Shown: piece after piece, positions 49,134 through 54,679 of the stretch | Layout: each line of letters starts with the position of its first letter | How positions within the stretch are numbered: position 1 is the first letter of the stretch | NCBI GenBank assembly: GCA_020347565.1 | Contig: CP070732.1 | Coordinates: 1,535,508-1,599,507, forward strand | Direction: 5' to 3' | Length of the DNA stretch: 64,000 bases | DNA from: Methanobacteriota archaeon | GTDB lineage: Archaea > Thermoplasmatota > Thermoplasmata > UBA10834 | Notes under the pieces: generated by a model | Database searches by the model: none | What the model saw: the letters and a program-made list of their open reading frames with translations, nothing else | Told to the model about the DNA's origin: nothing | Translations under genes and position numbers: made by a program

Positions 49134-50216
49134 CTAGCCCTCCTTCTCAGCCCCGTCGGCCTTGGTCTCTTTCGCCTTCGCCTCGGGCTTTCCTCCCACC
49201 CCATCCCCGCTCTTCGCAGTGGGCTCCGTCTCGGTTTCAGGCGGTGGTGGCTCATCCTCGGTCGTGGGCTCCGCGTCCTCGGGCTTGGGCGGTTCGGGCT
49301 GCGCCTCGTCCTTCGGCGGCGGCAGCTCGTTCTCCGCGTCCGCCTCCTTCGGAGCGCCTTTGGCTGGAGCCTCTGGCTTCTCCTCGGGTTTCGCCTCTCC
49401 TTCGTCCTTCTTCTTGCGCTTACGAGGCTTTTTCTCCTTCGCCTCGGCGCCCTCCTTCTTCTTCTCCTTCGGGGCGGACTTCTTCTTCTCCTTCTCCTCT
49501 GCATCCGTCGCCTTCTTCAGCTCCTCGACGGCCTCGCCCGCACGCTCCTCCTCGACCTTCTCGGCAGCCTCCTTCTCAGCCTCCGCGCTCGGCTCCGCCG
49601 CTGGCGGCGCCTCGGGCTCGGGCAGGGGAAGCACGTCGATCTCGTCCGGGAGCCTCGCATCCGGATGCATGATCTGTACCGTAACGCCTATGGTCCCTGG
49701 CTTCATCCTCGCATTGGCGAAACCCTTCTCCATGAAGTCCAGCTTGGCCTGGCCGCAGAACTTGATGTGGCCGGACTTGAACTTCTCCCTTCTGTGACGC
49801 TGTCCAGTGAGTTTGCCGGCCACTGTCACCTGGCAGCCCCTCGCGCCCGACTCCATGATTCTTCGCACCGTCGAGTGCCCCGCCCGCCTGAAGTGCCAGC
49901 CCCGCTCGAGCGCGCTTGCGAGCTTCTCGGCCATGATCTGCGCGTTCAGGTTCGGGTTCTCGACCTCCTGTACCTCTATCTGCGGGTTGCTGAAGCTGAA
50001 GTCGTCCTCTATCGCCCTCGTCAGCCCCTTGATTGCCTCTCCCCGCCTTCCGATGACGAGGCCGGGCCTCTCCGTTATGAGCGTCACCCTCGTTCCCATC
50101 GGCGTCCTCTGGACATCAAGGCCTCCGAACCCCGCGCGGCCGACACGGGACATGATGTACTCCCTCAGCAGCACCCGCCGGATCTTCTCCGTCACAAACT
50201 TCCTCTCGCTTGCCAT
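49134..50216 (-). CDS. rps3: ribosomal protein S3 (uS3) with ~160-residue low-complexity tail
   Basis: 360 residues; ordinary archaeal S3 is about 200-230. Core residues 1-200 include the KH domain with RPGLVIGRRGEAIKG and HFRRAGHSTVRRIMESGARG. The tail (about 200-360) is made of Lys/Glu/Ala/Pro repeats (KKKSAPKEKKKEGAEAKEKK), first basic then acidic-proline rich, likely disordered. Confidence 0.96.
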   Translation of the reverse strand: MASERKFVTEKIRRVLLREYIMSRVGRAGFGGLDVQRTPMGTRVTLITERPGLVIGRRGEAIKGLTRAIEDDFSFSNPQIEVQEVENPNLNAQIMAEKLASALERGWHFRRAGHSTVRRIMESGARGCQVTVAGKLTGQRHRREKFKSGHIKFCGQAKLDFMEKGFANARMKPGTIGVTVQIMHPDARLPDEIDVLPLPEPEAPPAAEPSAEAEKEAAEKVEEERAGEAVEELKKATDAEEKEKKKSAPKEKKKEGAEAKEKKPRKRKKKDEGEAKPEEKPEAPAKGAPKEADAENELPPPKDEAQPEPPKPEDAEPTTEDEPPPPETETEPTAKSGDGVGGKPEAKAKETKADGAEKEG

Positions 50217-50241
50217 GCAAATCCTCCGTCGGGCGCCATCC

Positions 50242-50694
50242 TCAGGATGACTTCTCGACCTCCTCCAACACGATCTCTACGCTCGTGGTCTGCTCGTTCC
50301 AGGGGGTGCTCCTGCCATGCGCTCTCGGCATGTACGCCTTCTGTATCCTGCCCCTGTGGGCGCAGGCCACCCTGATTCTCATGTTGTCCGCGTCCAGGCC
50401 CTTGTATTCCGCGTTGGAGTGGGCGCTGTTCACGACGCCCAGGATCGCCCTAGCCGCCTTCTGCGGGTACCTTCCCGGGCCGCTCCCAGCTTTGGGGCTT
50501 AGGAACATCTTGTATCGCGAGTAGGGCACGGCGGTCTTCATGTCGACAATCCCCGTGAGGTACTCCCTCGCCCTGTCGACCTTCATGCCCTTGAGCATCT
50601 TGCACACCTCCCTGCAGTGCTTCGGCGACACGCGCATCTCCTTGCCTATCGCCTTGGAGGTCGTCTCCGGGTCCGTCTGCTGTGTGTATCCCAT
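50242..50694 (-). CDS. rpl22: ribosomal protein L22 (uL22)
   Basis: 150 residues. KAIGKEMRVSPKHCREVCKM and the beta-hairpin end HAHGRSTPWNEQTTSVEIVL are conserved in archaeal L22, which lines the exit tunnel. Confidence 0.95.
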   Translation of the reverse strand: MGYTQQTDPETTSKAIGKEMRVSPKHCREVCKMLKGMKVDRAREYLTGIVDMKTAVPYSRYKMFLSPKAGSGPGRYPQKAARAILGVVNSAHSNAEYKGLDADNMRIRVACAHRGRIQKAYMPRAHGRSTPWNEQTTSVEIVLEEVEKSS

Positions 50695-50712
50695 TCCCCT
50701 CGACCTCCTCCA

Positions 50713-51276
50713 TCACTTCAGTGGCATGAACTTGGACGACCTCGTGGCGCCGACGCCGAGGCCCGAGTGTCTCACGCCCTTCCTGGTCAGCGCGAACTCG
50801 CCAAGCGAATGCCCTATCATCTCGGGCTTGATCTCCACTGGCTGGAACTCCTTGCCGTTGTGTATCATGACCGTCTTCCCGACGAACTCCGGGAGCACGT
50901 ATATCTCGCGCCTGTGCGTCCTCACGGGCTCGTCAGAGGTCCTCATCCTCGCGAGGAAGGCGTCCTGCTCGGGGTTGAGGCCGCGTATGAACGACCGCCT
51001 CGCCCTGGCCGGAAGGAGCTCGATGATGTCCGCGAGCGGCATCTTGAGCAGCTCCTCCATCGTGTACCCGCGGTACGTGAACTCCTTCTTCCTTCTCGCC
51101 TGTATCTGGCTCTTCTTCTTCCTCATCCTGCGTCGCGAGGCCTTCGCCGACCCTCCGTGCCTGGCAGAGGGCTTCGGCTTCTTCGCCTTCTCGGGCTTCG
51201 CCCCCGCAGCACCCGTCGTCTTGGCCACCGGGGCGGCGGCCGGCTCGGGCGTCTCGACCTTGACCGTCTCAGCCAT
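50713..51276 (-). CDS. rps19: ribosomal protein S19 (uS19) with N-terminal extension
   Basis: 187 residues. Residues 1-58 are an Ala/Pro/Lys-rich extension; the archaeal S19 core follows (EFTYRGYTMEELLKMPLADI and GHSLGEFALTRKGVRHSGLG). The ORF is continuous from ATG 51276, 3 nt after the L2 stop, so the extension is probably translated. Confidence 0.94.
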   Translation of the reverse strand: MAETVKVETPEPAAAPVAKTTGAAGAKPEKAKKPKPSARHGGSAKASRRRMRKKKSQIQARRKKEFTYRGYTMEELLKMPLADIIELLPARARRSFIRGLNPEQDAFLARMRTSDEPVRTHRREIYVLPEFVGKTVMIHNGKEFQPVEIKPEMIGHSLGEFALTRKGVRHSGLGVGATRSSKFMPLK

Positions 51277-51279
51277 TCA

Positions 51280-51993
51280 CTACACCTTCCTCGGCTTCTT
51301 GCGCGACTTCTTCTTGGGCGCTAGCCTGCCGACCTTCCTTCCCGGCGGAGCGTTCCTTCCCACGCTGGACTGCGTCCCGACGTGCGGGTGTCCGCCTCCG
51401 CCGTGTGGATGGTCGACGGGGTTTTTCGCAATGCCCTTCACCGTGAAGTACGCCTTTGACGTTGACCTGTAAGCGTGGAACTTCTTCCCCGACTTCGCGA
51501 AGGGCTTCTCCTTGTGCCCTCCACCGGCCACAAGGCCAACGGTCGCGAGGCATCGTCTGTCGACCTCCTTGAACCTGCCAGACGGGAGCAGCACGACCGT
51601 CTTGGCGCCGTGGCTGACAATCGTCGCGGCGTTGCCAGCGGTCCTGGCGAGCTTTCCGCCGTCTCCCGGCTGCAGCTCGACGTTGTACACGATCGTGCCT
51701 TCGGGCAGCTGCCCGACGGCGGCGGTGTTGCCCGCTGTAACGGAGCCGGACGCGCCCACCGTCACCTTCTGGCCGACGAAGGCGCCGTCCGGCGCGAGCA
51801 TCCAGAACTCCGTATCCCCTAGGTCCACCTTAGCCAGAGGTGCTATCCTGCCGGCTTCGTGTCGTATGTCGACGATGACGCCGCTGCCGCGTCTCACCTT
51901 CGGGTGCTTGGCATCCGTGAACTTGAGGTGCCTGGGAGACTTGTACCGACCGTACCCCCGACCCCTTCGCTGATTTATGAGGTTCTTTCCCAT
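51280..51993 (-). CDS. rpl2: ribosomal protein L2 (uL2)
   Basis: 237 residues. INQRRGRGYGRYKSPRHLKF is the N-terminus and NPVDHPHGGGGHPHVG holds the peptidyl-transferase-proximal His. Sits between L23 and S19 as usual. Confidence 0.97.
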   Translation of the reverse strand: MGKNLINQRRGRGYGRYKSPRHLKFTDAKHPKVRRGSGVIVDIRHEAGRIAPLAKVDLGDTEFWMLAPDGAFVGQKVTVGASGSVTAGNTAAVGQLPEGTIVYNVELQPGDGGKLARTAGNAATIVSHGAKTVVLLPSGRFKEVDRRCLATVGLVAGGGHKEKPFAKSGKKFHAYRSTSKAYFTVKGIAKNPVDHPHGGGGHPHVGTQSSVGRNAPPGRKVGRLAPKKKSRKKPRKV

Positions 51994-52005
51994 GTCCGTT
52001 CACCC

Positions 52006-52284
52006 CTAGAATATGCCGATCCTCATGCCGATCTCCTCGGCTGAGTAGCCCTCCTTCAGCTTGATGATCGCGTGCTTCCCGTTCTTCATCACCTTGATGT
52101 TGACGCTGTCGACCTTCGCCTCGAAACGCTCCTCAAAGGCGCGCTTGACCTCCGCTCGCGTGGCGTCTCTCCGCACGACGAACTCAAGGCGGTTGCCGTC
52201 CCTGAGGTTCTGCGGCGGCGTTCCGGACATGAAGTTCATGGTCTTCTCGGTCACATACGGGTGCAACAGCACAGTCCTGCTCAT
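52006..52284 (-). CDS. rpl23: ribosomal protein L23 (uL23)
   Basis: 92 residues. VLLHPYVTEKTMNFM and NRLEFVVRRDATRAEVKRAF are conserved. It frames the exit tunnel, the site for NAC and SRP. Overlaps L4 by ATGA. Confidence 0.95.
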   Translation of the reverse strand: MSRTVLLHPYVTEKTMNFMSGTPPQNLRDGNRLEFVVRRDATRAEVKRAFEERFEAKVDSVNIKVMKNGKHAIIKLKEGYSAEEIGMRIGIF

Positions 52285-53102
52285 CTGCTCCACCTGCCTA
52301 TCTCCGAGAGCGCTGACTCGCTGACCATCATCAGCCTGCCTGGGTCGCCCCCGGGCGCGAGTACGGACACGTTCAGCGTCTTGGGCGTAACCACCTCGAC
52401 ACCGGCGATGTTCCGCATGCTCCTGCCGCCTTCGCATTCGCCTGATAGCACGACCAGGAGACCGCGCGGTGCGCGGTGCTTCCGCCCCCTCATCTTGCCC
52501 CTTCCGGCACGTATCTTGCGGCCGTTCTTCGCCCTCTCGACGTCGTCGTAGACGCCTATCGATGACAGGGCGTCAATCGCATCCTTGGTCGTCTTGATCG
52601 ATTCGAGGTCGTCTCTGACGACCACAGGGACCGTGAGCTCCTCCTCGAACCTGTGGCCCCTCCCGCGGACCAGCTCGGGGACGCTGGTGGCGTGCAGCGC
52701 GGCCAGCTTGGCCTGCAGCAGTTCCTTCCGGTTGATCTTCTTGCCTCTGTCCTTTGCCACCCGAGGCGGATGCGCGCGTCTCCCACCGACGTTGTTCGGG
52801 GACTGCGCGGCGGTGGAGCTGCCCATGAGCCTCTGGACCCTGGACACTCCCCTGCCCTTCCCCCAGGTCTGCACCGAATGGCGCATGCCAGCGGTAGGCT
52901 TGGGGGCGTACGGCTGCCTCGCGTTCGCGGCCATCGCGTCGGTTGCCCTTCGTATGAGGTCCGGTCTGTAGTCCGCCGCGAAGACCTCCGGCAGCTCCGC
53001 CTCTCCGGCGACGTCGCCTTTGATGTCGTAGACATTGATCTTGTCGGGAGCGCGGGCGCCCTTCGAGGTCGCCTTTTTCTCCTTGACCTTCTTCTCAGCC
53101 AT
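52281..53102 (-). CDS. rpl4: ribosomal protein L4 (uL4)
   Basis: 273 residues. DYRPDLIRRATDAMAANARQ and GMRHSVQTWGKGRGVSRVQR match archaeal L4. The N-terminus has a short Lys-rich extension. Starts 4 nt after the L3 stop. Confidence 0.96.
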   Translation of the reverse strand: MAEKKVKEKKATSKGARAPDKINVYDIKGDVAGEAELPEVFAADYRPDLIRRATDAMAANARQPYAPKPTAGMRHSVQTWGKGRGVSRVQRLMGSSTAAQSPNNVGGRRAHPPRVAKDRGKKINRKELLQAKLAALHATSVPELVRGRGHRFEEELTVPVVVRDDLESIKTTKDAIDALSSIGVYDDVERAKNGRKIRAGRGKMRGRKHRAPRGLLVVLSGECEGGRSMRNIAGVEVVTPKTLNVSVLAPGGDPGRLMMVSESALSEIGRWSR

Positions 53103-53106
53103 TCAA

Positions 53107-54111
53107 TCACACTCCCTGTTTTGATTCAAGTGATACGAACGTGATCTCGGGCGCCTCGGACAGCTTGATGCCCGTGTCGCGTATGGGCTCCCTCATGCGC
53201 ACGAGCCGTTTCGACGGGCCCGGTACCGAGCCGTGCAGGAGCACGTACGGGCCTGCTATCTGCCCGTAGTTCAAGAAGCCCCCTCTCGGGGTCACTTCCT
53301 CCCCCTTGTCGCCTATCTTGAGTACGCGCTTGTTGACCTCCGTCCTCTGGTGGAACCCGACCTGGCCGCCCTGGGGCACAGTGTGCCTCACCAGGCCAGG
53401 CCTCTTGGGTCCGAGAGTGCCGATGAGCCTCCGATGCTTGCTGTTCTTGTGTATCAGCAGCTTCGTGCCCCACCTCTTGGTCACGCCCTGCCAGCCCTTG
53501 CCCTTGGTGATGGAGCTGACATCGACCATAGCCCCCTCGGAGGCGAAGTCCCTTATCGTGACGGTCTTGCCGAGAGCGCCCTTGGCGTACTGCAGCCGGT
53601 CGTCCAGCGTACCGCCGCCTACCCTGATCTCCATGAGCTCGGGCTTCTTCTTCGGGAGCCCAGCTACGAGGACAGGCTGCGTATGCGCAAGCACGCGTAT
53701 GTCGTCGTACTCGAGCTTCTCCGCCTTCGACCACGCGCTCTTCTCGTCGTACTCCTTCGGCACCGGGAGCCTCCGCGGAAGGTGCTTGTCGAGCTTGGCG
53801 CTCCATACCTCTCCCACGGCCTTCCTGCCGTACGACGAGGATTCGTAGAAGCGCACTCCGCAGATCTTCATCGGCGGCACTTCGAGCACCGTGACAGGCA
53901 CCTGGACCTCCTGGCCGGCGGTCGTGCTCTTCGGCCTGTAGTCGACCATGAACGCATGGGTCATCCCGGCCTTGTAACCAGCGAAGCCCTGCAGCCTCGT
54001 GCCGTTCCCCTCGGCGTCGGGCCAAGAGGATATCCTGGCGGTTATGCTCCTGGCTCTCTTCCTGGGCGAGTAGCCCATGGAGCCCTTCCTCGGACGTCTC
54101 CTTTGTGGCAT
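53107..54111 (-). CDS. rpl3: ribosomal protein L3 (uL3)
   Basis: 334 residues, the first gene of the run. RRPRKGSMGYSPRKRARS and GKGWQGVTKRWG with KNSKHRRLIGTLGPKRPGLV are conserved. The ATG follows GAGGGA. Its leader (54112 to about 54298) is long and structured, see the separate entry. Confidence 0.97.
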   Translation of the reverse strand: MPQRRRPRKGSMGYSPRKRARSITARISSWPDAEGNGTRLQGFAGYKAGMTHAFMVDYRPKSTTAGQEVQVPVTVLEVPPMKICGVRFYESSSYGRKAVGEVWSAKLDKHLPRRLPVPKEYDEKSAWSKAEKLEYDDIRVLAHTQPVLVAGLPKKKPELMEIRVGGGTLDDRLQYAKGALGKTVTIRDFASEGAMVDVSSITKGKGWQGVTKRWGTKLLIHKNSKHRRLIGTLGPKRPGLVRHTVPQGGQVGFHQRTEVNKRVLKIGDKGEEVTPRGGFLNYGQIAGPYVLLHGSVPGPSKRLVRMREPIRDTGIKLSEAPEITFVSLESKQGV

Positions 54112-54302
54112 GTGCTATCCCTCGTCTCGAAGCTGGATACTTCGATGTACTCGAATCGCCGTCGAGCACTTGAGTCGAGGCATTCGTTCTCGACCGTGAC
54201 GTCTCGTCCGCGCTTCAGAACATCGTCCCGCGCGGGTGTTGGGGTGCCTGCCAAGACATAGCCCACATGACGTCTGGTCGATACCGCCTCGGTATCGCAG
54301 GC
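54112..54302 (-). promoter_or_regulatory. structured 5' leader of the ribosomal-protein operon (candidate)
   Basis: From the predicted start near 54298 to the L3 ATG are about 187 untranslated nt. Visible helices: GCCTGC at 54302-54297 pairs with GCAGGC at 54251-54246, enclosing a perfect 7-bp hairpin (54279-54285 with 54291-54297) and an AGAC/GTCT stem. A second perfect hairpin (TCGAAG/CTTCGA, 54127-54145) lies 15 nt before the L3 start. A ligand, possibly a ribosomal protein, is conjecture. Confidence 0.45.
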
Positions 54303-54320
54303 TTGCTGAATGGGGTGCTC

Positions 54321-54330
54321 GTATATAAAC
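54321..54330 (-). promoter_or_regulatory. TATA box of the L3 ribosomal-protein operon
   Basis: GTTTATATAC, a near-perfect archaeal TATA box, on the minus strand 210 nt upstream of the L3 start. No other good box lies closer. Confidence 0.65.
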
Positions 54331-54358: not shown

Positions 54359-54679
54359 CTACTTGCCTTCCTTCGCCTTCTTCTGGGCTCGCTTTCCGCG
54401 CTCCTTGGCGGTGTACCCAGTCGCCCTCTCGAGGAAGGTGTTGTACGCCTTGATGGTCCTCAGCGCGACCTCGTCGTCGACGCCTGGGTCCGTGTCCGTC
54501 TCGACGCACAGGATGTTCTTGCCACCCTGCCACGCCCGTAGCTCCCTCAGTGCGCCGAACGACGAGACGTACCTCTCTTCTTTCTCCTCGACGTTTCCGA
54601 AGACATCCCGCATGTGCGCCTTGAGCTTCTCAGGCGATATGTTCTCCTGATGCCCTCTTCTGACCTCGTACTCGCTCAT
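54359..54679 (-). CDS. DUF5611 family protein
   Basis: 106 residues, a small archaeal protein recognisable as DUF5611: VRRGHQENISPEKLKAHMRD, then an alpha/beta part ending in the strand ILCVETDTDPGV, and a basic C-terminal helix (GKRAQKKAKEGK). Function unknown. It starts 57 nt after the RaSEA stop. Confidence 0.8.
   Translation of the reverse strand: MSEYEVRRGHQENISPEKLKAHMRDVFGNVEEKEERYVSSFGALRELRAWQGGKNILCVETDTDPGVDDEVALRTIKAYNTFLERATGYTAKERGKRAQKKAKEGK

Follow-up and report, generated by a model that had tools for sequence, protein, structure and literature searches.

In the L4 leader of the bacterial S10 operon, a ribosomal protein acts as the feedback ligand at the operon that corresponds to the one studied here. 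The S4 and S15 leaders of E. coli are pseudoknotted leaders of ribosomal-protein genes. To our knowledge, the balancing of ribosomal-protein synthesis in archaea is known for few operons. The available text of Eckert and Weinberg 2020 (PMC7247131) describes L4 as the ligand of an established bacterial ribosomal-protein leader (r-leader), and it gives a predicted L4 r-leader for Archaeoglobi that was rated borderline for covariation. In this study, we analysed the region 5' of the uL3 gene in a stretch of 64,000 nt of archaeal DNA (hereafter the window) and in related genomes. Judged from genomic sequences, a folded RNA seems to stand at this same place in most members of the phylum Thermoplasmatota.

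The initial annotation of the window had placed a strong TATA box about 210 nt before L3, followed by a structured leader of about 187 nt. The box was found there, its centre lying about 214 nt from the A of the uL3 ATG. Archaeal transcription is expected to start about 25 nt 3' of a TATA box, and the predicted leader is thus about 190 nt long, close to the length first given (Table 1). Its fold had a free energy of -75.5 kcal/mol compared with -63.5 +/- 4.3 kcal/mol for shuffled sequences (z -2.77), and none of 200 shuffles was as good, so the proposed capacity to fold was borne out. The perfect hairpin of the initial annotation also exists (8 bp, 54279-54286 with 54290-54297), but it is promoter-proximal, at the 5' end of the predicted transcript, and not promoter-distal as had been stated. 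Two hairpins are predicted on the promoter-distal side; each contains one G-U pair, and both are absent from the family consensus structure. The conserved RNA occupies the 5' two thirds of the leader and consists of the hairpin P1, a three-way junction made of P3, P4 and the closing stem P2, and a tail. The P2 consensus is RCC-A-GACGC with GCGUC-AC-GGY, and that of P3 is GGG-CAA-UGC with GCA-W-CCC. A CCCATTC element between the TATA box and the predicted start is nearly invariant in the window's own family (f1), its CATTC part fully so; it could be a promoter element or the sign of an earlier start.

Table 1. Features at the uL3 operon leader, in window positions
Feature	Position	Strand	Basis
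Downstream uL4, uL23, uL2, uS19, uL22 and uS3 genes	49134..53102	minus	Pfam
uL3 gene, first in operon	53107..54111	minus	Pfam PF00297 (Ribosomal_L3), E 3.2e-86
Predicted untranslated leader of the uL3 operon, ~190 nt	54112..54301	minus	TATA box + ~25 nt; fold; family conservation
GAGG, likely Shine-Dalgarno of uL3	54120..54123	minus	GAGGGA invariant in 17 aligned family leaders
Pair of predicted hairpins 3' of the core and 5' of the ribosome-binding site (54147-54169, 54127-54145)	54127..54169	minus	single-sequence fold
GCCTC tail, can pair with P1 loop GAGGC (54286-54290) as pseudoknot	54177..54181	minus	complementarity
P2 closing the three-way junction (54281-54269 with 54203-54190; A opposite AC internal loop)	54190..54281	minus	consensus, covariation
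P4 hairpin, variable in sequence and length	54208..54235	minus	consensus structures
P3, GGG-internal loop-UGY / GCA-N-CCC arm	54240..54265	minus	family consensus, phylum alignment
P1 hairpin, family loop GAGGC	54279..54297	minus	sequence, family alignment
CCCATTC element, between TATA box and predicted start	54308..54314	minus	family f1 alignment
TATA box TTTATATA	54322..54329	minus	read from sequence
DUF5611 gene 5' of the leader	54359..54679	minus	Pfam PF18446, E 8.2e-31

Conservation was examined within the window's own family. The leader DNA matched 17 of the 18 other family genomes, the single miss (G017) having no uL3 match either, and it had no match among 41 more distant genomes searched. 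The family alignment held 17 leaders including that of the window; one further leader (L008) runs into N and was left out. Mean column identity was 79%, and RNAalifold predicted 36 pairs, seven of them changed on both sides. In 16 comparisons, identity to the window was 63-82% in the leader and 51-62% at third codon positions of uL3. The stretch 5' of the TATA box was 48-84% identical, in many rows equal to the leader. Since this spacer includes the end of the upstream coding sequence and is no clean control, conservation within the family on its own proves little.

The core (127 nt, 35 pairs) was then turned into a covariance model blind to gene context, which was searched against 300 genomes of the class and gave a match at E<=0.1 in 111 of them, one per genome. 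Of the 93 matches outside the family, all except that in G159 were fetched. uL3 lay just 3' on the same strand in 91 of these 92, with about 0-100 nt between core end and gene; the 92nd lies 72 nt from the end of its contig. A second model (R2), built from 100 sequences, matched 204 of 292 genomes of the phylum, gene context being read for those loci that other searches had fetched. Among the matches listed, G189 and G397 have two each, possibly from a duplicate assembly or a second copy. A DNA pattern scan of GTDB genomes gave at least 117 stretches, at least 29 of which are the same DNA as the 92 loci. Titles among the matches listed name Thermoplasmata, Poseidoniales, Methanomassiliicoccales and unspecific archaea, and the matches include Ferroplasma acidarmanus Fer1, Acidiplasma aeolicum and Thermogymnomonas acidicola. 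A same-strand uL3 gene was found 3' of the RNA in 107 of the 117 matches listed, within 200 nt in 105; the two others are a broken uL3 match right after the core (L201) and a gene 308 nt on (L181). Nine of the remaining stretches stop 14-146 nt past the match, and one (L233) enters a 100-N gap followed by other DNA.

Genomes that had lacked a genome-wide match were also examined. Of 28 chosen, 23 had a uL3 match, and a local search 5' of that gene detected the RNA in 18 (E 1.8e-14 to 1.7e-5). The five uL3 loci at which it was absent on local search (L304, L305, L306, L307 and L310) all belong to family f10. uL3 leaders in f10 are short: by eye, a TATA-like box stands about 35-60 nt 5' of the ATG. 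The RNA is thus absent together with the long leader, and this family serves as a natural control. Together, the uL3-uL4 leader RNA is probably ancestral in Thermoplasmatota.

Known RNA families were searched with cmscan using all Rfam 15 families. The window leader and 18 diverse relatives gave chance-level matches only, in a collection that may or may not include the Archaeoglobi L4 family. Archaeal RNase P RNA (RF00373) had no match at the leader and sits elsewhere (G000:C1:1640928-1641243). In the same genome, the 23S rRNA gene appears in two distant pieces (G000:C1:1770008-1770802, L026, and 817568-818509, L027); a run of 100 N adjoins each, so fragmented 23S rRNA was ruled out in favour of an assembly gap. 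The compact, highly conserved core, with its three-way junction and loop-tail pairing, is aptamer-like, as would be expected of a riboswitch that senses a metabolite or ion and thereby regulates the ribosomal-protein genes. This explanation is unlikely, since none of the 19 leaders matched an Rfam model of a known riboswitch class and every match with readable downstream sequence leads into uL3, with one assembly-gap exception.

The stems were next examined across lineages. A total of 213 leaders was collected from 91 + 105 + 17 loci, of which 208 had both anchors and 203 remained under stricter anchors; 119 were left after dereplication and were aligned with MAFFT, fitted to no structure. Mean pairing of P2 and P3 in these 119 leaders was 0.938, compared with 0.29-0.39 when the partners were slid by 1-3 columns. 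Covariation was assessed with a purpose-written, R-scape-like test, distinct from R-scape, in which substitutions are relocated on the tree to form the null. Over all 7381 pairs, E<0.05 was reached by two, which both belong to P2. Within the proposed set, five of the 16 P2/P3 pairs reached E<0.01, four in P2 and one in P3; for two of these, columns 32-98 and 47-54, the signal comes from one to three changes on each side. Of the 11 other proposed pairs, seven vary on neither or one side only, and four vary but fall short of significance. An alignment of L3 upstream regions in relatives had been proposed as the check on the leader, and in it the P2 and P3 stems are conserved and covarying by this test.

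The same 119 leaders were used to locate the promoter. TATA-like octamers peak 50-65 nt 5' of P2, with 64 matches in that range and 0-16 in other bins, and 85 leaders have one 25-75 nt 5' of P2. This position puts the expected start near P1. The initial annotation had named two refuting outcomes, a lack of conserved base pairs and a start close to the L3 ATG; the first did not occur. With TATA-like boxes holding their place in this way, a start close to the ATG is unlikely, except in the one family without the RNA.

The P1 loop can pair with the tail, and the letters of the two differ together by lineage: GAGGC/GCCUC (window), UGAGG/CCUCA, UAAU/AUUA, GAAGG/CCUUC and CCCGC/GCGGG. A P1-like hairpin is present in 99 of the 119 leaders, and in these the complementarity of the loop to its own tail was 9.09 compared with 7.87 +/- 0.17 for permuted tails, a value reached in 0 of 20,000 permutations; relatives share history here, so that the independent cases are nearer the handful of letter sets. 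Only 39 of the 99 had their own tail within the top tenth of tails, and the pseudoknot is therefore not evident in every lineage. In some predicted family folds, GCCUCG pairs with the Shine-Dalgarno (SD) sequence CGAGGG; a switch of this sequence between the P1 loop and the SD is not proposed here. Many long leaders, forming one large group, carry a further hairpin between core and SD, GCGAGG-UUAGCGAAGANAC-CCUCGC (e.g. L099, L101, L109 and L135). For this hairpin, the motif TTAGC was counted: 49 of the 119 tails have it, the chance for a shuffled long tail being 0.049. The arms of the hairpin are GCGAGG/CCUCGC in 30 dereplicated leaders, GCGAGA/UCUCGC in seven and UGUGAGA/UCUCACA in one, the stem being preserved.

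The relation of the core to the SD differs between short and long leaders. Short-tail leaders numbered 21, those of Ferroplasma, Acidiplasma and Thermogymnomonas among them. In 19 of the 21, the 3' strand of P2 stops 1-7 nt ahead of the SD, which thus starts within 8 nt of P2. Direct control is therefore possible in short leaders. Among 90 long leaders, accessibility of the SD fell below that obtained with shuffled linkers in 48 (p 0.26), and SD sequestration is unsupported there. The adjacency seen in the short leaders also bears on two other explanations. A separate small RNA, for example in rRNA processing or assembly, could have its own promoter and be cut from the mRNA or end before uL3. 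The promoter-like sequence directly 5', the self-contained fold and the single match per genome (111 of 111 genomes with the first model and, with two exceptions, the 204 matching genomes listed for R2) agree with this. However, the RNA is linked to uL3 over a short distance, and in those 19 short-tail leaders the 1-7 nt between the core and the uL3 SD could hardly accommodate a transcript end, which makes a small RNA improbable. An element with no protein ligand could constitutively set the stability of the mRNA or the efficiency of its transcription or translation, and SD adjacency alone could tune initiation. We give this little credence, because the strong conservation of bases that are unpaired or in internal loops (GGGCAAUGC, CCAGAC) suggests recognition rather than mere stability.

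The RNA has a conserved, covarying core and lies close to a ribosomal-protein operon on the same strand, the only position seen; these are the usual grounds for proposing an r-leader. We thus consider it likely that the RNA is a cis-acting r-leader of the uL3-uL4 operon in Thermoplasmatota, through which an operon product, uL4 or uL3, would exert translational feedback. Feedback by a bound operon product had already been raised in the initial annotation, and this interpretation is partly supported. uL4 follows uL3 in 73 of 75 testable loci, the remaining two being broken uL3 matches, and gene order therefore cannot tell L3 from L4 as the ligand. On the 5' side, a DUF5611 gene also precedes the leader in 39 of 75 uL3 loci (tblastn, among the pattern-scan matches listed with sufficient downstream sequence). 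uL4 is the first guess, because L4 is the ligand of the bacterial r-leader and the one proposed for Archaeoglobi in the available text of PMC7247131; uL3 is close behind. As for mimicry of rRNA, R2 had no match at E<=10 in the SSU and LSU loci of three genomes; mimicry may be too small for such a search, and short-motif look-ups in Ferroplasma and G046 gave scattered partial matches only.

Under this r-leader model, transcription would begin just 5' of P1, and the leader would fold into P1 and the three-way junction of P2, P3 and P4. The most conserved parts of the core, CCAGACGC, GGGCAAUGC, GCAWCCC and GCGUCACGG, would form the likely protein site. An operon product in excess of free rRNA, most likely uL4 and next uL3, would bind the leader and stabilise the junction and the loop-tail pairing, upon which initiation of uL3 translation, and with it expression of the whole operon, would fall. 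In short leaders of the Thermoplasmatales type, the effect would be direct, the ligand-held junction blocking the ribosome at the SD. In long leaders, including that of the window, the added 3' part would have to relay the signal. With somewhat less confidence, we lean towards one feedback RNA kept since the ancestor of the phylum, with its core conserved, its output part exchanged between lineages, and the RNA lost with the long leader in one family. The output would then range from direct SD occlusion in the Thermoplasmatales type to a remote pseudoknot with lineage-specific 3' hairpins.

No report of a Thermoplasmatota uL3 leader RNA was found in the available text of PMC7247131 and PMC2864571, subscription literature being thinly covered. 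The best reading is a new r-protein leader of Thermoplasmatota, the phylum of Thermoplasmata, within the known kind of r-leaders. If true, it is an r-leader of unusual breadth for archaea, a compact RNA with natural variants in acidophiles, methanogens and marine Poseidoniales. Its minimal form of about 100 nt in cultured Ferroplasma and Acidiplasma would make feedback on a large ribosomal-protein operon directly testable. Like the S4 and S15 leaders of E. coli, it has a loop-tail pairing as possible translational control, but it stands at another operon, the tail that pairs lies apart from the SD in its long leaders, and some lineages show no clear pairing. With the L4 leader of the bacterial S10 operon, it shares the corresponding operon, although that leader belongs to a different lineage and had no above-chance Rfam match to the leaders scanned. 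The L4 r-leader of Archaeoglobi was compared by description only; it is reported for Archaeoglobi, and "Thermoplasma" is absent from the main text of PMC7247131. In the description given there, the Archaeoglobi leader lies, as in the window, 5' of the same archaeal operon (rplC, rplD, rplW, rplB), with L4 as its proposed ligand. It is possible that the leaders of Thermoplasmatota and Archaeoglobi form one older family.
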